Below are positions 1,850 to 11,278 of a stretch of DNA of 64,000 nucleotides, piece by piece. The stretch lies in NCBI RefSeq assembly GCF_000516515.1, contig NZ_KI911784.1:496001-560000 (forward strand). The letters run 5' to 3'. The stretch is from Chloroflexus sp. Y-396-1. Lineage in GTDB: Bacteria > Chloroflexota > Chloroflexia > Chloroflexales > Chloroflexaceae. The translations under genes were made by a program, and so were the position numbers. The notes under the pieces were generated by a model that made no database searches, was not told the origin of the DNA, and saw only the letters and a list, made by a program, of their open reading frames with translations. Position 1 is the stretch's first letter; each line of letters begins with the position of its first letter.

Positions 1850-2425
1850 TCAGCTCTCCTCGGTTATGGCAAATAGCCCCAGATTCACCAGACGGCTCAA
1901 GCCTACGATAGCCTGTCCATATTGGTCTGATTGGGCATAGTGACGGACTGTCAAGGCAGCGCGCCGGGCGCCAGACACCACAATTGGGACGGCATGCTGA
2001 GGGCCCTGCTGTCCCTCTTTCAGGAGTGAAAAGCCTTCTCGTTGCTCAATGGAAGTTCCCCACAACAGATGTTGTTCTTGCCAGGCATCTTCTCTCAGGG
2101 AGTCGCCATCTGTAATGATTCGCCCCTGGAAACGATCTTCATCACGCCAGATCAACAACTCCCCACCCGGACCGAAGATGCGCAACTGTTGCAACGTCTC
2201 TGGCCGCAGCTCTACAGCGATCGCAGGATAGCGGCTCTTGAGATTAAAGACGTCGCTCGACAGCAGCAGGCTGCCGTCAGACCGGCGGCGCCCCCAGATC
2301 ACCCCGTTGTCGGCATGAGCGAGCAGCCAGGGCATATCTTCGGACATATGCTGGGATAACCAGCCACGCATATCTTTTTCCAGATCGCTGAAGTCTTCCA
2401 CAGCCCTCCACAATGGTTCGCTCAT
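1850..2425 (-). CDS. csx19: CRISPR-associated protein Csx19 (TIGR03984-like)
   Basis: This is a 191-residue protein of the size of Csx19, an accessory subunit typical of III-D loci. The ATG at 2425 overlaps the TGA of the upstream tandem-RAMP gene (ATGA at 2422-2425), which decides the start against an in-frame extension to 2464. Visible features are a Trp-rich beginning (LWRAVEDF) and a middle part with LLWGTSIEQREGFSLL, which I recognise as family-like. No catalytic motif is seen. In the structurally studied III-Dv complex Csx19 binds the crRNA-guided backbone; that role is carried over from the family. The assignment rests on size, motif impression and its place between two RAMP genes. Confidence 0.75.
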   Translation of the reverse strand: MSEPLWRAVEDFSDLEKDMRGWLSQHMSEDMPWLLAHADNGVIWGRRRSDGSLLLSSDVFNLKSRYPAIAVELRPETLQQLRIFGPGGELLIWRDEDRFQGRIITDGDSLREDAWQEQHLLWGTSIEQREGFSLLKEGQQGPQHAVPIVVSGARRAALTVRHYAQSDQYGQAIVGLSRLVNLGLFAITEES

Positions 2426-3891
2426 ACGGCTGCTCCTTCCAACGTTGCGTCTTTCCAGTTCCATAGAGAATGCATAACGTATTTGTTCAGGGTGGTAAAG
2501 GCATCGGCGGGTTCGCAGCGCAACATGTCGCCGTTTTGTTCCAGCTTCCAGTGCTGTTCGTGGTCATGCTGGTGCAGTGTAAGCGTTGCGCGCACCCCCA
2601 CCAACCGTCCCCGTCCGACGCTACTCTCGCCACCCACGGGCAGGTCGCCGGTCCACAGGTCTTTGAGCAGCAGCAGCAGCAGTCCGATCTCGGCATCCTG
2701 GGGGTTACGGAGTGTCAGTGTGATAGTGACCTCTGACCGGTCGTTGCCAAAAACCGGTTGCTCGCTGAACAGCGCTGTCGGAAATGCGCCGCCGGTGAAA
2801 CGGTCGATCTTGACCCGACTCTGCACCAAATCACGAACGCCCTGGATAATGCTTTCTTCCACTACGACACGGCTGCTGCCAGGGAGGGGCCGGCCCGCCC
2901 GGCTCTTTGCTCGTTTCTCAGCAATGTCATCTTCGTTCATTGGCGGACCGAACATGTTGTCAATCAGTTCAGACGCCTTCTTCTCGCCCAGGATGGTGTT
3001 GGCAATACGCAGCGCCCGACTGCGCAGCACACCAGCCAGGCTGGTGCCGGAAAGAACAGGCACCACACCACCTGGACGCAACGATTTGAGATGCACCATG
3101 TCAGGGCTTCCTGGTTGACCGCTGCTAGAACGAATGAGAAGAGAGCCGGACAGACGAAAAGTAGCTTGCAGGCGAAACCACTCACGTTGATCGGCTGCCA
3201 GGCGGCCGACGCCGAGCAGATCGTAGATATTGTCGCCAACCCTTTCACTGCGGGTATCATCCTCTAGCCAGGCGATCAGACCAGCAGGCGTGGTCAGATC
3301 GTAGCGCCGAACACGCCATTCGCTCACCTTGCAGCGCCCTAAGCCGCGCCGTTTACGCTTTCCCAGTCCGATCTCACCTCTGGCAAGCCCATTCAAAGCC
3401 GTTGCTAGTGCCAGCAACAGGTCTCTGTTATCAGATGTTTCCAGGAATTCCAATCGGATGTCGAAGGTCGTGCCAGCCGCAAGCAGCTCAATGTCGTACT
3501 TCTTTTTGTCCTCGGCAGTTCGCGTGTGTGGATCAATGGCTACGCCGTCGCGCAGTTCGATGCCTGCCACCTTGCCAAGTGCATCGTCAACTAACAGCCA
3601 GCTTTGCAGCGTGTGCCGTTTCTCCAACCGCCCGAAAAGACGCTCAGACAGGTCGTTCGCGTCTCCCACCTGACCGTAGCCGCGCTCCACCTCGCGCAGG
3701 TAGGCGCGCAGCGCGCCAGCGATGGACGCGCCGGTGAGCAGCGGCGTCACGCCATCCCGCGGGTCGCGCAACAGCGACATGTCGGCGACGCCCACGACAT
3801 CGCCGTTGCCGAAATGAGCCGGGGTTTCCAGCACCAGTCGGCCGGTGATGATGGTGCGCCCGGTTATGTTGCGTGCAGCGCGTCCTCTCAT
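2422..3891 (-). CDS. Tandem-RAMP (Cas7-2x-like) Csm3-type subunit
   Basis: The 489-residue protein contains two RAMP modules in one chain. The first has LLTGASIAGALRAYL at about 51-65 and a glycine-rich loop GEIGLGKRKRRGLG at 172-185. The second has VLSGTSLAGVLRS at about 279-291 and the loop GGESSVGRGRL at 420-430. Such a double Cas7 is known from III-D variant complexes (Cas7-2x), where Csm3-type subunits bind crRNA and cut target RNA at aspartates. Candidate catalytic aspartates are D37 in module one and D264 in module two, both upstream of the G-x-S/T motif; this is an inference. It overlaps csx10 upstream and csx19 downstream by ATGA, implying translational coupling and fixed stoichiometry. 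Confidence 0.85.
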   Translation of the reverse strand: MRGRAARNITGRTIITGRLVLETPAHFGNGDVVGVADMSLLRDPRDGVTPLLTGASIAGALRAYLREVERGYGQVGDANDLSERLFGRLEKRHTLQSWLLVDDALGKVAGIELRDGVAIDPHTRTAEDKKKYDIELLAAGTTFDIRLEFLETSDNRDLLLALATALNGLARGEIGLGKRKRRGLGRCKVSEWRVRRYDLTTPAGLIAWLEDDTRSERVGDNIYDLLGVGRLAADQREWFRLQATFRLSGSLLIRSSSGQPGSPDMVHLKSLRPGGVVPVLSGTSLAGVLRSRALRIANTILGEKKASELIDNMFGPPMNEDDIAEKRAKSRAGRPLPGSSRVVVEESIIQGVRDLVQSRVKIDRFTGGAFPTALFSEQPVFGNDRSEVTITLTLRNPQDAEIGLLLLLLKDLWTGDLPVGGESSVGRGRLVGVRATLTLHQHDHEQHWKLEQNGDMLRCEPADAFTTLNKYVMHSLWNWKDATLEGAAV

Positions 3892-5480
3892 CGTCTTTCC
3901 TCCTTGTTGCGTCTCGCCAGAGTTTGCAGGACACCGTCGATCAGGCGCACGGTATACTCGACCTTGAGATCCTCGGTGAGCACAGCTCTTTCACCTGCTA
4001 CCTGGGGGAGAGAGCCGCCAGCCAGCAGTTGCACATCAACATCCAGCTTGTTGGCTCGTTCGGTTAACCAGTTCAGCAATCTGACGCCTCCCGCCCCCAG
4101 TCGACAACTCTCCATCTGCCTCTTACCTGCTTCTTTCAGATTGGTCAGATAATCCTTCAGTGGTTGCATCGAACGCTGCGGCTGCGCCAGACCAGATAGG
4201 GCAGCCTGCCGGATGGCAGATAGTTGTGCGTTGCTCGGCACGCTCTGCGTTCCGGTTGCCACCGCGTCAATCTGCTTCGCCAGGGCGCGATCAAGCTCAT
4301 TGCGCAGACGACGCTGCGCCATATCCTGCGCCAGACGGCGGCTCTCATCAGAAAGCGGGACCTCGATGGGCACCTCGACTTCCTGCCAATCCGAAGCAGG
4401 TCGGCGGGTCATTTGGGCAGCAACCTGCCAGTTGATAGCGATGCGGCCGAAGCCTTCGGCGCGACGCTCGCCAATGCCATAGTTCATGGCTGACAGCAGA
4501 GCAGCCTGGTTCACAACGGGAGTCTCAAAGACAAAAACGCTGCCGGGCGTCAGTGCCCAGGTTTGAGGAAGGGGCAGGCTCCATTTGCGATTGTAGCCGC
4601 CCATCAGCATCATCTTGCCAAACGAGGCTGTCAATTTCGCCTCTGCAGGCAATCCCAGGCTGCGAGCCAACTCCTGACCGCCATCCCAACCAACCTGTCC
4701 AGCATCGTTGCGCAGGATGACTGGGCTAAGCAGAGTGACCACCACGCGGCCATTGGTTATCTCGCCGCCTTGATGCTCTTGCCATTCCGTTGGCGTCTCA
4801 TTCAACATTTCGACAGCGACATGTCCGTATCCTGCCATGCGGGCGCTGCCGAGGAACAAATCGCCGCCTTCCAGCAAGGCTTTAATCTCACTCAGATACT
4901 GGTCATCACGAGCAGTAATTGCTGCGATGAAACGCTGATCAGGCGCCAATGCCTCATAGCGGAAGACCTGATTGCCTTCTCCACGACGGTTGACATCTTC
5001 AAGGGTGATATGCACCTGATCAATGCGATCTACACCCACCAACGCGACCCGATACGTGGCTTCTTCGAATGCCTCTTCAGGTTCCTGCTTCTCCAGGAGA
5101 CAGAAAGGTCCTCCCTTGGGAGGTTTGAGCGTGCCCTTTTGATCGGCAATGGCCAGATCGTAGAGCGTTGTGTTCTCGTTTTCCACCTCATCCTTCTCCG
5201 CGAACCAGGATGCTGGCATCGGCAAGGTGCGCTCACCGTTCAGCTCAGGATAGGCGTTCAGATAGCACACAGAACCATCGAGAAACAAAGTGCGCCCAAT
5301 GGGATCAACCGCCAGATCATTGACGTTGCGGTTTCTGGCGAGCCAGCGCGCTGCCAGCACGCCACGTAGCGCACTGCCGGGTATATAGGTCAGACCTACT
5401 GCGCTGTTTTCCTCACCTGCCCCAGCCTGGGCTATCAGCAGCGGCTCAAGCAGGTGCAGGCGCAAGAGGATGGCTTTCAT
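3888..5480 (-). CDS. csx10: CRISPR-associated RAMP protein Csx10 with helical C-terminal extension
   Basis: The 530-residue protein begins MKAILLRLHLLEPLLIAQ and has the RAMP motif TYIPGSALRGVLAARW at 31-46, as in the Csx10 family that defines subtype III-D. Csx10 is taken as the Cas5-like subunit that holds the crRNA 5' handle. A glycine-rich segment ERRAEGFGRI closes the RAMP part. Residues about 377-530 are largely helix-forming and rich in Arg, Lys, Gln and Ala. This looks like a small-subunit (Cas11-like) domain fused at the C-terminus; the identification is inferred from composition only. ATGA overlaps tie it to the Csm3-like gene upstream and the tandem-RAMP gene downstream. Confidence 0.85.
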   Translation of the reverse strand: MKAILLRLHLLEPLLIAQAGAGEENSAVGLTYIPGSALRGVLAARWLARNRNVNDLAVDPIGRTLFLDGSVCYLNAYPELNGERTLPMPASWFAEKDEVENENTTLYDLAIADQKGTLKPPKGGPFCLLEKQEPEEAFEEATYRVALVGVDRIDQVHITLEDVNRRGEGNQVFRYEALAPDQRFIAAITARDDQYLSEIKALLEGGDLFLGSARMAGYGHVAVEMLNETPTEWQEHQGGEITNGRVVVTLLSPVILRNDAGQVGWDGGQELARSLGLPAEAKLTASFGKMMLMGGYNRKWSLPLPQTWALTPGSVFVFETPVVNQAALLSAMNYGIGERRAEGFGRIAINWQVAAQMTRRPASDWQEVEVPIEVPLSDESRRLAQDMAQRRLRNELDRALAKQIDAVATGTQSVPSNAQLSAIRQAALSGLAQPQRSMQPLKDYLTNLKEAGKRQMESCRLGAGGVRLLNWLTERANKLDVDVQLLAGGSLPQVAGERAVLTEDLKVEYTVRLIDGVLQTLARRNKEERR

Positions 5481-6145
5481 GACATCACCGCCTTTCGGAA
5501 CACGGCAAAGAGTGCATCGGTCACCGCAAGGTCGTCCTTGCCTAGCAGATCAGCCTGCATCCGTCCTCGTCCGCGGTTTCGACCGGTGCCAGCGCGACGT
5601 AATGCCTTCACACACGCTGCCAGCAAGGCCAGGTCGTCGGGCTGCGGTTCAACGACAAAGTCCAGCGGCGCACGGAAAACCGTACCGCGCAGGATGACGC
5701 GCATCGTGCGCAACGTGTTCTCCTGCGGCACACCCCAGGCATCCATAGCAGTTTGGCGGCGCAATGCGGTAACCAGCTCCAGGACATCGTTCGGCGTAAG
5801 ACGCTGCTTGCGTACCTCCTGGCGCAACGCCGAACGGAGGTCCTCAGGCAGACGAGCAGTGCCCACCCGCAGAATTGCCTCGCCCTCCAGTGCTGCACCA
5901 CTGTGCCCGAACAGTCGCTCACCAGCCAACTGCCAGCGATCTTTTTGATCGGGCCTGGCTCTTTCCAGGGCAAAAACTATGTCGGCGCACTCTGCACCCA
6001 GCAGACCTTTGAGCGTCCGTCCTGCCAGGAAAGGCAGCCCGAAGTCGTCGTGCTGGACTTCGGCATCTACCAACCCCGCAACACCGTCGCCGCGCCCAAA
6101 CGTCGCGTCGCTCAAAAGGGTCAAACGCAGTTGATAGCTCGGCAC
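5477..6145 (-). CDS. Csm3-like RAMP (single Cas7 subunit)
   Basis: The protein has 222 residues from a GTG at 6145. That start is chosen because GGAAGGAG stands 9 bases upstream, and because the longer in-frame extension to 6523 runs across the neighbouring gene and reads as low-complexity nonsense. The sequence shows a Csm3-like beginning (LRLTLLSDATFGRGDG), an acidic pair D33-D34 before FGLPFLAGRTLKGLLG, and a glycine-rich GTGRNRGRGRM near the end. In Csm3 an aspartate at the corresponding place cleaves target RNA; D33 or D34 is the candidate here. It starts just inside the end of the 121-residue gene and overlaps csx10 by ATGA. Confidence 0.8.
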   Translation of the reverse strand: MPSYQLRLTLLSDATFGRGDGVAGLVDAEVQHDDFGLPFLAGRTLKGLLGAECADIVFALERARPDQKDRWQLAGERLFGHSGAALEGEAILRVGTARLPEDLRSALRQEVRKQRLTPNDVLELVTALRRQTAMDAWGVPQENTLRTMRVILRGTVFRAPLDFVVEPQPDDLALLAACVKALRRAGTGRNRGRGRMQADLLGKDDLAVTDALFAVFRKAVMS

Positions 6146-6149
6146 AGGC

Positions 6150-6515
6150 TTACACTCCTTCCAAAGACACATAAAAATCGAGCGCTTCGATAGCATCGAA
6201 GTAGACACAACGATTGCCCTGCCAGCCAGTAGTCGTGGCATCGCCAGCGCTGGCCAGTTCAGGCGTTTCAGGTAACCTGGGGCTGTCGGGTAAGTTGCGC
6301 AGGAAAAGCTTCGTTGCATCGGGACCGGCTCTGAGCGCCTCCCGCAGCGCTTTAACCTTGTTGCGCCGCCCTGCCCATTCCCTGCTGCGGGCAAATTTGT
6401 CAACAATGCTGCTAAACACGTGCCATGAGCGCCACTCGTTGGGATCGAGCGGTGTGAGACGTAAGGGCCGCATGAGCAACGAACCGTCAGCGACAGTGTA
6501 CTCGCGCCGACGCAA
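6150..6515 (-). CDS. Small CRISPR-locus protein of unknown family
   Basis: This 121-residue frame fits exactly between cas10 and the Csm3-like gene. The cas10 stop TAA (6516-6518) is followed at once by a TTG at 6515, and the frame ends 4 bases before the GTG of the next gene. An internal ATG at 6473 is the alternative start. The middle part, with segments such as SSIVDKFARSREWAGRRNKV and LREALRAG, is basic and helical. The last third looks like short strands. I do not recognise the family. Position between Cas10 and Cas7 would suit a small (Cas11-type) subunit, but Csx10 also carries a helical extension, so the role stays open. Confidence 0.6.
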   Translation of the reverse strand: MRRREYTVADGSLLMRPLRLTPLDPNEWRSWHVFSSIVDKFARSREWAGRRNKVKALREALRAGPDATKLFLRNLPDSPRLPETPELASAGDATTTGWQGNRCVYFDAIEALDFYVSLEGV

Positions 6516-7787
6516 TTATTCACTGAGCGGACGCACCAGCCCTGTTACAGCAAAATGCCAGTCAAGCGCTGCCACTCGCCGCGTCTTCCAGTCGATCTCC
6601 TGTATCAATCTCTTGGCCGAATCGCAGAGCGCATCGGCCAACTCATAGGCGCGAGCGAAGGGGTAGTGGCTCCTGACAATGGCGACCCCGGCGCGAGCGT
6701 ACAGGGGATCGCCGTCCGGCAGATTCTCCTCAGCCAGACGAGAGAGGTAGTGTACAGCCAACGGCAGACCCAGGCGACCCTCACAAACAAAGGTGACATC
6801 ATCACCGCCAAAGACAATGGGGCGGAAAGGCAGGCGATCAATCCCATCGACTCTGGGTATAGGCACTTGTCCGCCGAGCAAATAGCACCTCTTCTGGTCA
6901 TCCCACTTCAGGTTATTTGGTGCTAACATCAAACCGACGGTAGAGTTCAGTGCATGCTGCACTGAACTCTGCACCTTCTGCGAGAACTCACGTTGGGCTT
7001 TGACGTAGGCTGCATCATCACTGGCAAATTGATCAATGTAAGACTGGATGCGCCCGCCCATCCGGTTGCCGTCGGCATGCACGACCGCCAGATAGGAGGT
7101 TTCTTCGCGTTCACCCAATTGGTTGAAGTCGTAAACGAACTCGAAGTTTGCCCGACGAATATCTTGCAGGTATTCCAGCAACCGACTATTACCCGGCCCA
7201 TTCGAGGCACCTGCGCGCTGCTTGGCTTGCACCTCTGCCGAGACATAGCGACCTTCGTCGTCTACCCCAACAGCCGGCGCACCAGTGAAGTCACACGCAG
7301 CTGTTACACTCAATCCCAGCAGGGGCGAGGATCGCTGCGGGCTGCGCTTCTGCTTTGAGATCTGGTCGCGCAGTATATTGACGGTTGCAGCCAGTTCACC
7401 CTGGGCAAAAGACCTCCAGGCTGCTTCCATCCGTAGACCTGGAGCGTCTCGGAGCGCCTTGAGCGTCAGGCTGTAAACCGTCTTCTTTGCCTCCTCCTCT
7501 GCGGCAAACAAGATCAGCGCATTGCCGCCGCCCGCATAAACTACCTCGGCGACTAGTCCATTGGCGAGGCTTTGGTCACCGATGTGCCAGCGGGAAGCTG
7601 CACCTTGCTGAGCTCTGCGCACGTTGTGCGGTTGGGGCAACAGGCCGCTGCGCTCATCAAAGAGCCAGTCGGTGGTGACCTGAGTCACCAACTCTGATGC
7701 GCCGACGTTCTGAGACAACTGGTTGCTACCGAAGATATAGTCCTGGATGCCGCTTGCTTCGATGAGCAGCGCTGTGGATTGGGTCAT
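6516..7787 (-). CDS. cas10: Compact Cas10 with GGDD motif, no HD domain
   Basis: At 423 residues this Cas10 is about half the usual size. The start reads directly into a palm-like domain (ASGIQDYIFGSNQLSQNVGA at 11-30, GGGN at 86-89). A second palm follows, with VVHADGNRMGG at 235-245 and FGGDDVTF at 326-333, then a C-terminal segment YARAGVAIVRSHYPFARAYE. The GGDD motif is intact, which in Cas10 marks the site that makes cyclic oligoadenylates when target RNA is bound. No HD nuclease motif and no zinc ribbon between the palms are visible. Loss of HD means no Cas10 DNase activity is expected, so signalling should be the main output. The start ATG overlaps the upstream stop (ATGA, 7784-7787). 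Confidence 0.85.
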   Translation of the reverse strand: MTQSTALLIEASGIQDYIFGSNQLSQNVGASELVTQVTTDWLFDERSGLLPQPHNVRRAQQGAASRWHIGDQSLANGLVAEVVYAGGGNALILFAAEEEAKKTVYSLTLKALRDAPGLRMEAAWRSFAQGELAATVNILRDQISKQKRSPQRSSPLLGLSVTAACDFTGAPAVGVDDEGRYVSAEVQAKQRAGASNGPGNSRLLEYLQDIRRANFEFVYDFNQLGEREETSYLAVVHADGNRMGGRIQSYIDQFASDDAAYVKAQREFSQKVQSSVQHALNSTVGLMLAPNNLKWDDQKRCYLLGGQVPIPRVDGIDRLPFRPIVFGGDDVTFVCEGRLGLPLAVHYLSRLAEENLPDGDPLYARAGVAIVRSHYPFARAYELADALCDSAKRLIQEIDWKTRRVAALDWHFAVTGLVRPLSE

Positions 7788-8980
7788 ATCGCCTCCTGAT
7801 TTGCCTCACGGAACCACCTCAGCAGGTGAGCAGGAAGGTCGCCGATGTGGGAGCGACCGAACACTCTGATTTTGCCTTGGGCATCCCACGCCTCAGAAAC
7901 TTCACGTTGCAAGTCGCGCACGTTTTTGTCTTCGCAGAATGTGATGGCGGCAAAGCGGGCCTCGTCGCCGCCGAGCTGGCCAGCACGAGTGAAGATCTCA
8001 AGCAGATGTTCTTTTGCTTTCGATTTCTGTTCGGTGGCAATACATGAAATGGCGAAGAGCTGATATCCAATGGTCGCCGCTACGTCCAGATCGAAGTCTG
8101 GGCGATTTGAGGACTGTATGAAGATCTCACTAGCATAGTCGTCCAGCGGCATCTGCTGATGGGTCTTACTTAGCGCATCAAGGGTATAGTCTTCAAGCCA
8201 GCCACCAATAAAGTACTTTCCGCACTGTTTCAATTGCTGGAACTCCAGTGCTTGCGCTACACCCTCGGCACTGGTCTTTCCTCCACAAGCGGCATCGAAA
8301 GCCTGTATCGCTGGCGTCAGCGCTGAAAACCTGGTCGAGTCGGGTAGTGTGGCGCCGCCTTTCCAGGTATCAAGCCAGTCGCGCCACTGCTTCAGACCTT
8401 CTGGAGCAAGGTGAACTTGAGCGATAGCAGCGGCAATCGCCGCGTGGAGCGGCGTTGTTCGCTTCCGTTTGATCTGATAGCCGTGCATTTCCACGATGTC
8501 AGCCAGCTTGAGCGTTACCTGGCGCTCCACAGGAATACGCTGCACTGGACCGCCACCTGGATCAATCACCATACTGAGGGTGCGCGCATCCAGATAGCTG
8601 AACACTCCGGCTGGAAACATGGTGGACAGAGCCTGATAGCTGTATGCCGCCATCGGCTTGGTGCCGCCCGTATAGTTCAGTCCGATCGTTCGACGCGGAT
8701 AGGAGCGTTCAAACTGCTGGACAGCTTCCCTCACCTTACGGGCAATCGCCGGTCCATCAGCCTCTGGGACAGTAAAAAGCTGAGTGCTCAGATCCGCACG
8801 TTCGCTGCGTAGACGGCTTTTCAGCCGTTCGGCCACTGTTGCGGTCGCCTGGGAATGCAGCAGCACCAGGGTGCCTTGCTCACGGATCAAAAGCCTGGCA
8901 GCCACGTAGTTTGGCAGCGGATTGGTTCCGATCAACAGAAACAGCACATCGGTACGGAAGTCGGAAAACTTGTCACTCAT
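7784..8980 (-). CDS. CARF-domain nuclease candidate (Can2/Card1-like)
   Basis: The 398-residue protein starts with a CARF domain: LLIGTNPLPNYVAARLL at 15-31 and the ligand-loop motif NYTGGTKPMA at 102-111, both typical of cyclic-oligoadenylate sensors. The C-terminal third resembles the DUF1887 restriction-endonuclease fold of Can2/Card1: GGWLEDY at 259-265, FDLDV at 296-300, and later GGDEARF at 337-343. The usual E-x-K step is not standard: the aligned place reads S312-C-I314, followed by EQKSKAK, whose lysines may take over. Card1 and Can2 cut DNA or RNA when cA4 binds. This gene heads the cas operon; AGGAG lies 8 bases before the ATG. Confidence 0.8.
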   Translation of the reverse strand: MSDKFSDFRTDVLFLLIGTNPLPNYVAARLLIREQGTLVLLHSQATATVAERLKSRLRSERADLSTQLFTVPEADGPAIARKVREAVQQFERSYPRRTIGLNYTGGTKPMAAYSYQALSTMFPAGVFSYLDARTLSMVIDPGGGPVQRIPVERQVTLKLADIVEMHGYQIKRKRTTPLHAAIAAAIAQVHLAPEGLKQWRDWLDTWKGGATLPDSTRFSALTPAIQAFDAACGGKTSAEGVAQALEFQQLKQCGKYFIGGWLEDYTLDALSKTHQQMPLDDYASEIFIQSSNRPDFDLDVAATIGYQLFAISCIATEQKSKAKEHLLEIFTRAGQLGGDEARFAAITFCEDKNVRDLQREVSEAWDAQGKIRVFGRSHIGDLPAHLLRWFREANQEAI

Positions 8981-9167: not shown

Positions 9168-10055
9168 CTATACTCGTTCAACAAAACCGGCAAAACGCTC
9201 ACGCAGGAAGCGATAGTCGAGCGATGTATCTTCAGGGAGGTTCCAGGCAACGCGACATTCGGCCAGAATCGCAGTTTTGTGGCTATTAACGGTATTGAGC
9301 GTGATGCATAGACTCGCGGCAACTTCGTCAGGACGCATGCCTTTGGCAAAGGCGCGCAGGACATCGCGCTGGCGCGGGCTGAGCCGTTTCCACACCTGGC
9401 GACACTGCGCCTCGTCGATGGTGGCAACGCGCCGCAACTGCTCTTGTACTGCCTGCATCGATGTCTGTGCTAGTGCGCGTAGTGCCGGAAAGTAAGCACC
9501 CCACGGCACGATCGGCGCCTGAATTAATTGTACGCCATCGGCTGGCGCTACGTGCATCATTGCGCCGTCTTTAACGCGCTGCAATGTCTCTTCCGGCGTG
9601 TACATGTGCCAGATGCGATCCTGATGGTCGCAGAGCAACGCCGCAGCCGACATTGCCAGGAGCGCCAGCATGCGCCGACCGCCACTCAGGCAAAGGTGGA
9701 GCCGTCGTCCCTCACTTTTCAGGTCGGCGATTAGGGTGCGGATACTCTGCCAGGCGGCTTCGGCATCAGCAGCGGTACGGATGTCGGTCAGTTCGACGCC
9801 ATTTACGCCGACTGGAAACCGACGCAGTCGGCAGCGCCGACCGGCGTAGTAGTCGTCAACGAACTCTTGTTGCAGCCGTTGCCACGCTCGACGAGTACGC
9901 TCATTGGTCAGCGCGAGGTGCACGATGTAGACTTCGTGGATTATTTCACCACGAGCAAGAAGTGCATCTAGAGCAAAGGTAACAACTTGTGGTTGGCCAC
10001 CGAGGGTGGCAAGTAGAACAGAGGATGGCTCTGCTGGTGAAAGGGTATCTAGCAT
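9168..10055 (-). CDS. CARF domain fused to LuxR-type helix-turn-helix
   Basis: The protein has 295 residues. The N-terminal part is CARF-like: LATLGGQPQVVTFALDALL at 15-33 and LCLSGGRRMLALL at 121-133, close to the NE0113 (TIGR02584) CRISPR-associated family. Residues 225-265 form a LuxR/GerE helix-turn-helix: LSPRQRDVLRAFAKGM, then PDEVAASLCITLNTVNSHK. CARF domains bind cyclic oligoadenylates, and LuxR domains bind DNA, so the inferred role is a transcription factor that reads the Cas10 signal, comparable in logic to Csa3. No nuclease motif is seen. The gene stands upstream of and in line with the cas operon, and divergent from the Csx3 fusion, so both units are candidate targets. Confidence 0.8.
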   Translation of the reverse strand: MLDTLSPAEPSSVLLATLGGQPQVVTFALDALLARGEIIHEVYIVHLALTNERTRRAWQRLQQEFVDDYYAGRRCRLRRFPVGVNGVELTDIRTAADAEAAWQSIRTLIADLKSEGRRLHLCLSGGRRMLALLAMSAAALLCDHQDRIWHMYTPEETLQRVKDGAMMHVAPADGVQLIQAPIVPWGAYFPALRALAQTSMQAVQEQLRRVATIDEAQCRQVWKRLSPRQRDVLRAFAKGMRPDEVAASLCITLNTVNSHKTAILAECRVAWNLPEDTSLDYRFLRERFAGFVERV

Positions 10056-10056
10056 A

Positions 10057-10096
10057 GCTATAAAACGATACTGTTGATAGTGGCTAATATTATAGC
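10057..10096. promoter_or_regulatory. Inverted repeat in the divergent promoter region
   Basis: GCTATAA at 10057-10063 is mirrored by TTATAGC at 10090-10096, with 26 bases between the arms. The repeat fills the short gap between the CARF-LuxR start (10055) and the Csx3-fusion start (10124). On the minus strand the distal arm contains TATAAT, a possible -10 for the CARF-LuxR gene. Widely spaced arms would suit a dimeric LuxR-type protein, so autoregulation by the CARF-LuxR protein is a reasonable guess. Confidence 0.4.
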
Positions 10097-10123
10097 ATTC
10101 TTTCTTGATGTTTGGAGCTTCTA

Positions 10124-11278
10124 ATGAACCCGTTTCCCGCAGTCATAATTGGCGGCCCGCCGCACAGTGGTAAATCGGTTTTAACGTACTTGCTCAGTCA
10201 CCTTCTGCGCGAACGAAAAATTGAACACTACGTCTTGCGCGCCTGCCCTGACGGAGAAGGTGATTGGAGCCAGGAGGCAGCACCAGAGCAGGTACGTCTG
10301 TTACGGCAGAAGGGTGCGTTTGACCAGACATTTGTTGATCGGGTGTGTCGCGATATAGAACGACGCCATTTGCCCCTGCTGATCGATGTTGGTGGACGGC
10401 CAACTTCTGATCAGGAGCGGATTCTTCGACACTGTACCCACGCGATTGTGCTCTCGGCAACCGCTGAAGGATTGCACGAATGGCGTCATCGTGTTGAGCG
10501 ATATGGGTTGATTGTGATTGCGGAATTGTTCTCAGTGCTGAACGGAAATGATCAGCTTGAGGCCGAAACGCCGGTACTGCGCGGGGTGATCAGTGGTCTT
10601 GAACGTCATACTGCTCAGAGCGGTGTTGTTACCACAGCACTGGCCAACCGCTTGGAGCGTCTAATGCGCTACGATTCCAAAGAGTTGAAAGATCACATCT
10701 TTCGTCAAGCGCCTTACGAAATGGTGGTTGATCTGTCGCAGCTCGTTCAACAGCTTCATCCAGCAAACGCTAAACAAAACTATCTGCCGGAAGACTTACC
10801 GAACGTCTTATCGCAGATCCCCCAAAACCCAGTGTCAATATACGGGCGCGGCCCAAACTGGCTGTACGCTGCGCTGACCCTCCACGTTGCCCCGCACCAG
10901 GTTGCGCTGTTCGACCCACGATTGGGATGGGTGAAACCTTTGTCTTTACCCTGCGTTTCTCGGCTAAAACCAGGGATCGTGGATTGGCAGATCAGGGTCG
11001 AACCGACGTATACCTTGTTAACTGCTCGATCAACACGGCCATATCTTGAATATGATGAGTTGGCTCAGCTAGAGGCGCCGACTCTTGACCCACAAAGGGG
11101 TGTAGTGATAAGTGGCAAAATCCCTTACTGGTTGCTTACCAGTCTCGTGCTTGCGTATCGAAACCATCCCTGGCTGGCTGTGGTGCAACCCCAACTTTAC
11201 CCGCTAGCCGGGGTCATCGTGCTGAGTCGTCAGATGCAGTACACACCCGGCGATAGGATAGCAGTTCCATTAGACTAG
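10124..11278 (+). CDS. csx3: P-loop NTPase fused to tandem Csx3 ring-nuclease modules
   Basis: The 384-residue protein starts at ATG 10124, with GGAG 6 bases upstream; an in-frame TTG at 10112 is less likely. Residues 10-18 form a Walker A (GGPPHSGKS), and LLIDVGG at 85-91 is a Walker B candidate. The C-terminal part repeats Csx3 features twice. A partial copy has GRGPNWLY (241-248) and DPRLG (264-268). A full-length copy follows from about 285, with GVVISGKIPYWLL (326-338) but QPQLY (355-359) in place of DPRLG. Csx3 (Crn3) degrades cA4, and its DPRLG aspartate is linked to Mn-dependent activity. The protein probably switches off the CRISPR signal; what the NTPase adds is unknown. Confidence 0.8.
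   Translation: MNPFPAVIIGGPPHSGKSVLTYLLSHLLRERKIEHYVLRACPDGEGDWSQEAAPEQVRLLRQKGAFDQTFVDRVCRDIERRHLPLLIDVGGRPTSDQERILRHCTHAIVLSATAEGLHEWRHRVERYGLIVIAELFSVLNGNDQLEAETPVLRGVISGLERHTAQSGVVTTALANRLERLMRYDSKELKDHIFRQAPYEMVVDLSQLVQQLHPANAKQNYLPEDLPNVLSQIPQNPVSIYGRGPNWLYAALTLHVAPHQVALFDPRLGWVKPLSLPCVSRLKPGIVDWQIRVEPTYTLLTARSTRPYLEYDELAQLEAPTLDPQRGVVISGKIPYWLLTSLVLAYRNHPWLAVVQPQLYPLAGVIVLSRQMQYTPGDRIAVPLD

Follow-up and report, generated by a model that had tools for sequence, protein, structure and literature searches.

The AAA-Csx3 locus and the adjacent CARF-HTH gene

We analyzed a window of 64,000 nucleotides (the whole stretch of DNA under study) from Chloroflexus sp. Y-396-1, in which an AAA-Csx3 gene and a type III-D cas operon are oriented divergently (Table 1). 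Its product aligns with the PADLOC profile over 1 to 381 of 382 positions and is thus a full-length member of the C3a67 family, which so far is known by name only. The Cas10 of this operon has a GGDD cyclase motif and no HD domain by Pfam. While the cas genes differ between AAA-Csx3 loci, a Cas10-like protein with GGDD is encoded in most of the neighborhoods viewed; the gene therefore sits in a type III ancillary context, in the window and in most relatives. No CRISPR array was detected in a test for exact 22-base repeats spaced as in an array, run on positions 1 to 64000 and on the 18 kb to the left (L125). Just left of the window, the type III-D operon is followed by two genes, one for an OLD-like ATPase (AAA_15/AAA_21) and one for a protein with a PIN domain (L125:15514-17458); PADLOC includes similar proteins as candidate defense (HEC-03).

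Table 1. Features of the AAA-Csx3 locus (positions in the window; residue counts refer to 67 nonredundant homologs)
Feature	Position	Strand	Evidence
Type III-D backbone: Cas7-like, Csx10, Csm3-like	2422-6523	-	Profile searches
Cas10 (III-D type), GGDD cyclase motif	6516-7787	-	PDLC00919, E 3.9e-107; sequence
CARF-PDDEXK (Card1-like) effector	7784-8980	-	PF09002, 3.2e-7; PADLOC CARF4 CARF_PDDEXK
CARF (NE0113/Csx14-like) + LuxR-type HTH regulator	9168-10055	-	PF09623, 8e-54; GerE, 2.7e-8
Divergent intergenic region between AAA-Csx3 and CARF-HTH genes, 68 bases	10056-10123		ORF positions
AAA-Csx3 (PADLOC C3a67) gene, 384 aa	10124-11278	+	ATG start; PDLC01059, residues 1-381, E 4.7e-191
SIMIBI-type P-loop NTPase domain (predicted), residues 1-183	10124-10672	+	AlphaFold2 pLDDT 92.5; MinD 1ion, Z 14.6
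Walker A GGPPHSGKS, residues 10-18	10151-10177	+	K17 66/67, G16 66/67
Signature RAxPDGEGDW, residues 39-48	10238-10267	+	D43 66/67, G46 66/67, W48 67/67
Walker B PLLIDVGG, residues 84-91	10373-10396	+	P84 67/67, D88 67/67, G90 66/67
Csx3 module 1, incomplete, residues 195-275	10706-10948	+	PF09620, 28.1 bits; fold search with module alone
Module 1 GRGPNW loop, residues 241-246 (AfCsx3 G45-W50)	10844-10861	+	Alignments; Cat1 W215 = W246
Module 1 DPRLGW, residues 264-269 (AfCsx3 D69, R71)	10913-10930	+	D264 60/67, R266 55/67, W269 67/67
Csx3 module 2, complete fold, residues 286-384	10979-11275	+	6yud_F, Z 15.8, rmsd 1.1
Module 2 QPQ replacing DPR, residues 355-357	11186-11194	+	Q355 40/67, Q357 36/67

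A homolog of the CARF-HTH gene adjoins AAA-Csx3 in 36/36 loci where the flank is present. The two genes are divergent in 33 of these, and three loci were flagged by our script as other arrangements; one of the three (L087) is probably divergent too, its CARF-HTH gene being on the opposite strand and overlapping an over-extended reading frame. Judged by eye, the sequences of the divergent intergenic regions look too divergent for a shared operator. In Ktedonosporobacter (L076) and Thermogemmatispora (L086), the CARF-HTH/AAA-Csx3 pair occurs with other CARF-like genes, and the neighborhood out to 10 kb showed no Cas10; these pairs are perhaps orphan or in-trans modules.

Domain architecture of the AAA-Csx3 protein

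A first-pass annotation, made from the sequence without database searches, had described a P-loop NTPase followed by a partial and a full-length Csx3 segment, and this layout holds. Walker A is in place with its lysine, and PF09620 (Cas_csx3) matches twice, at 72 and 28.1 bits, against a curated cutoff of 21 bits; the protein also scores above the cutoff of TIGR02579. As described, the partial segment keeps DPRLG (residues 264 to 268), and the second segment has WLL (residues 336 to 338) and carries QPQLY (residues 355 to 359) in place of DPRLG. The Csx3 fold expected for the C-terminal half is found in the predicted structure, in which module 2 superposes on AfCsx3 (6yud_F) with a Z score of 15.8 and an rmsd of 1.1 Å over 94 residues. 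For module 1 modeled on its own, the top Foldseek match is AfCsx3 (36% identity), followed by Cat1 (40% identity), with a VIA Z score of just 5.5, weaker than that of module 2; module 1 is without the C-terminal strands and the position equivalent to H80 of AfCsx3. The homologs keep this domain order, with the NTPase first, the incomplete Csx3 next, and the complete one last. Since this layout and the D/R versus Q/Q pattern of the two modules (see below) are both kept in 67 nonredundant homologs, they are no chance feature.

The NTPase domain

Databases label the N-terminal part of the protein AAA. In an AlphaFold2 model of the monomer (pLDDT, 92.5; pTM, 0.88), residues 1 to 182 match MinD (1ion) with a Z score of 14.6 and an rmsd of 3.4 over 171 aligned residues, followed by ParF (Z, 13.4), dethiobiotin synthetase (13.0), and HypB (12.8), with Soj also among the matches. 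The domain is thus predicted to have a SIMIBI fold (MinD/dethiobiotin synthetase-like) and not an AAA+ fold. An AAA+ fold appears less likely: in the window protein, the AAA_18 and AAA_16 matches fall below the Pfam cutoffs, and the best NTPase fold matches are SIMIBI. The Walker motifs are intact, which together with the predicted fold likens the domain to MinD, ParF, dethiobiotin synthetase, and HypB. It differs from them in its own RAxPDGEGxW signature, nearly invariant in the family and with a DGEG core common to the cyanobacterial Csx3-NTPase proteins, in the Csx3 tandem that follows, and in its GGPPHSGKS motif, which by sequence lacks the deviant lysine that marks the Walker A motif of MinD/ParA proteins.

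According to a 2025 survey of ring nucleases (PMC12409355), what the NTPase does in its fusions to Crn3/Csx3 is unknown, and the cyanobacterial form has been called kinase/transferase-like (PMC7371418). Along the same lines, the SIMIBI domain could belong to an ATP-dependent modifying enzyme that holds its substrate (cA4, a product of cA4, or a nucleotide) with the Csx3 tandem and attaches a phosphate or a comparable group to it; the resemblance in fold to dethiobiotin synthetase (Z about 13) would agree with such an activity, and the invariant RAxPDGEGxW could be a substrate loop. We consider this quite improbable, however, because the domain is just as similar to the switch proteins MinD, ParF, Soj, and HypB and has no known substrate.

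The metal-binding face of Crn3 is lost in both Csx3 modules

In the AfCsx3 dimer, opposite faces each contribute one half of the cA4 site, D69/R71 on one face and H57/H60/H80 on the other; the H60A and D69A variants of Crn3 abolish cleavage yet complement each other, and cleavage is strongly reduced in R71A and H80A (PMC7371418). The D69/R71 face is present in one of the two copies in the window protein, as D264/R266 in module 1, with Q355/Q357 at these positions in module 2. Among the 67 nonredundant homologs, D264 and R/K266 occur together in 56, and D264 is missing in 7; in module 2, the D69 position is Q in 40 and D in 3, and the R71 position is Q in 36 and R in 12. The metal-binding face (H57, H60, and H80) is lost in both modules, family-wide. 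In module 1, histidine occupies the H57 position in 1/67 and the H60 position in 4/67 (L253 and A256 in the window protein), and the H80 position is absent; in module 2, it is found at the three positions in 3, 4, and 5 of the 67 sequences, respectively (L343, R346, and R369 in the window protein), with arginine at the H57 position in 43/67 and at the H80 position in 37/67. Kept across homologs are the ligand-facing residues G241, R242, W246, D264, and R266 of module 1 and an S/G/K-P-W loop in module 2.

These counts bear on two proposals of the first-pass annotation. The swapped conservation that it saw between the modules stands for the D/R half, which is found in module 1 only, and fails for the other half, as module 2 does not carry the missing histidines. 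Its composite Crn3 site within one chain has to be abandoned: with the histidine face missing from both modules, the two do not complement each other, and with the metal-binding half gone from both, a site of the Crn3 type cannot form. Nor are the missing histidines supplied in trans by another Csx3, a possibility that we rejected since a PF09620 search found no stand-alone Csx3 in the genome of the window and, in 45 further Chloroflexota genomes with the family, all PF09620 matches lie by their coordinates within the AAA-Csx3 gene.

An active ring nuclease would require the tandem to form a working cA4-cleaving site, within or between chains and perhaps gated by the NTPase. The Csx3 fold and the D69/R71 equivalents retained in module 1 are consistent with this, and something may be needed to clear cA4 in genomes that have no other Csx3; by analogy with other ring nucleases, the D/R pair could allow weak metal-independent cleavage. 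Yet H57, H60, and H80 are missing in both modules, and the H60A change alone kills Crn3. Moreover, clearing could be done by the adjacent CARF-HTH protein, which is Csx14-like, Csx14 having been placed with Crn1 (PMC12409355). We regard an active ring nuclease as rather unlikely. Overall, AAA-Csx3 resembles AfCsx3 in the fold of module 2, the D69-face residues of module 1, and the linkage to type III systems, and it differs in its tandem, partly incomplete, NTPase-fused arrangement, the absence of H57/H60/H80, and Q-P-Q in module 2.

The tandem might also no longer bind cyclic oligoadenylate at all and instead serve as a protein-protein module tying the NTPase to the CARF-HTH regulator. The fixed gene pair and the loss of D and R from module 2 would fit such a role, but the conservation of the module 1 ligand-facing residues and of the module 2 loop argues against it, and we find it highly doubtful. 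Of the two uses of cA4 raised in the first-pass annotation, removal and recognition as a ligand, the residue pattern fits the latter better, and its idea that the NTPase couples nucleotide state to cA4 may still hold.

Module 1 resembles the cA4 sensor of Cat1

In Cat1, a Chloroflexota TIR effector, cA4 is bound where dimers stack on each other. The protein depends on W215 and shows no detectable activity as a ring nuclease; the text describing it does not mention Csx3 (PMC12162218). The family profile of module 1 matches the Cat1 sensor (9mud) with an E value of 1.9e-4 and AfCsx3 with 2.5e-4; for the single sequence, the values are 9.5e-4 and 2.8e-3, respectively. The match to Cat1 is significant but short, and by these scores the solved structure to which module 1 appears closest in sequence, if only slightly, is the cA4 sensor of Cat1. 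The two share a YG-x-GPNWLY loop, in which W215 aligns with W246, and the D69 and R71 positions are aligned (N234 and R236 in Cat1). In contrast, Cat1 joins a TIR NADase to one sensor domain, whereas the window protein has no TIR domain and joins its NTPase to two modules. Cat1 provides the precedent of a domain, related to Csx3, by which cA4 is read without being destroyed.

The residue pattern expected for a sensor is the same as that expected for a sponge, which would bind and sequester cA4 without cutting it and so lower the signal, with the NTPase governing its release. Nonenzymatic sponging of cA4 is known for PfCsx15 (PMC13148439). However, a sponge would need neither a conserved NTPase nor a fixed regulator partner, which makes this explanation improbable in our view.

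Distribution of NTPase-Csx3 fusions

AAA-Csx3 is matched in 48/400 Chloroflexota genomes and is therefore a family rather than an oddity. The GTDB contigs yielded 57 relatives. In the tree, the nearest named relative is Chloroflexus islandicus. A phage origin, or a phage-borne anti-CRISPR, was rejected, with zero matches in phages or IMG/VR. In a tree of the NTPase domain, a single branch (99/93) separates the tandem form from the forms in which Csx3 comes first.

All five catalytic residues are kept, with K for R71 in some, in single Csx3-NTPase fusions from Bacteroidota, Ignavibacteriota, Verrucomicrobiota, and Adonisia and in the NTPase-Csx3 of Halobeggiatoa and Thioploca (Thiotrichaceae); two forms, one from Bacteroidales (L096) and one from Saccharibacteria (L093), lack the full set. 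Given the single-Csx3 fusions with all five residues, linkage to an NTPase does not as such imply a sensor.

Several cyanobacteria have an adjacent or overlapping pair of genes for a stand-alone Csx3 and a Csx3-NTPase. The former keeps the full set, except for R in place of H60 in one pair (L109), and in most pairs the latter retains few or none of the histidines; in another (L111), the fused Csx3 still has H57 and H60 and has lost only H80. These cyanobacterial fusions (Csx3', slr7080 type) share the NTPase and the DGEG signature with the tandem clade and likewise have a divergent regulator gene, here for an HTH-WYL protein (TIGR03985), but fall apart from it in the tree. They also differ in having Csx3 at the N terminus and in several cases a separate intact Crn3 gene beside them. 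As judged from sequence, two separate clades have lost the metal-binding face from the module linked to the NTPase, and, if the complete set is taken as ancestral, the two losses would be independent.

Individual cyanobacterial loci vary further. On the Allocoleopsis plasmid pMIC7113.03, an intact Crn3 with all five catalytic residues (L051:5905-6234) lies beside a Csx3-NTPase (L051:6310-7212) whose Csx3 has lost all five, and both genes are annotated as Crn3 ring nuclease. A second, separate tandem arrangement is found in a Pseudanabaena plasmid gene (L055:4275-5600), whose single-chain product runs Csx3-Csx3-NTPase and retains most of the catalytic residues. In Leptolyngbya PCC 7375, an open reading frame of 733 residues (L109:7492-9690) with a C-terminal Csx3 (residues 614 to 727) directly precedes a Csx3-NTPase gene.

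A putative cA4-sensing switch

The reading that we favor, with a probability of about one half, is that AAA-Csx3 is a cA4-sensing NTPase switch whose sensor is a pseudo-ring nuclease and which works with the CARF-HTH regulator; it would not be a canonical ring nuclease. Upon infection, Cas10 would make cA4. This would sit sandwiched between two molecules of the protein, bound by the D/R face of the first and the opposite face of the second, and would escape cutting for lack of the metal-binding histidines. Molecules may then stack into filaments or higher oligomers, as with the related sensor of Cat1 and with Crn3 H60A, which behaves as extended fibers with cA4 (PMC7371418). Stacking would determine which oligomeric or nucleotide state the NTPase adopts, and the output might reach either the neighboring CARF-HTH regulator or the divergent cas operon that this regulator likely controls. 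Whereas the anatomy, the conservation, and the gene pairing are shown, we infer four elements of this scheme, namely, that cA4 is bound and not cut, that molecules stack, that the NTPase is thereby controlled, and that the signal is relayed to the regulator; sensing is the better supported part, and the output step of the NTPase is a guess. A more specific version, which we put forward only tentatively, is that cA4 glues the SIMIBI NTPase with its tandem pseudo-ring nuclease into filaments and that its ATP or GTP state is the infection readout passed to the CARF-HTH transcription factor.

In the literature that we searched, we found no function, residue analysis, or NTPase class for AAA-Csx3 (C3a67) and no mention of half-site loss in both modules, the SIMIBI fold, the CARF-HTH pairing, or the link to Cat1. 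Our analysis divides NTPase-Csx3 fusions into those that keep the whole catalytic set and those that have lost its metal-binding half. It also moves the NTPase to another class, reveals a constant CARF-HTH partner, and ties the module to the Cat1 sensor, and the role of the NTPase is now testable. Since automatic annotation labels PF09620/TIGR02579 matches as ring nucleases, such pseudo-enzymes are probably miscounted as off-switches. If the more specific, filament-forming version is true, AAA-Csx3 would be a cyclic oligoadenylate response protein of a new kind, and a dead signal-destroying enzyme would have become a signaling relay, with separate origins in Chloroflexota, in one chain, and in Cyanobacteria, in two genes.
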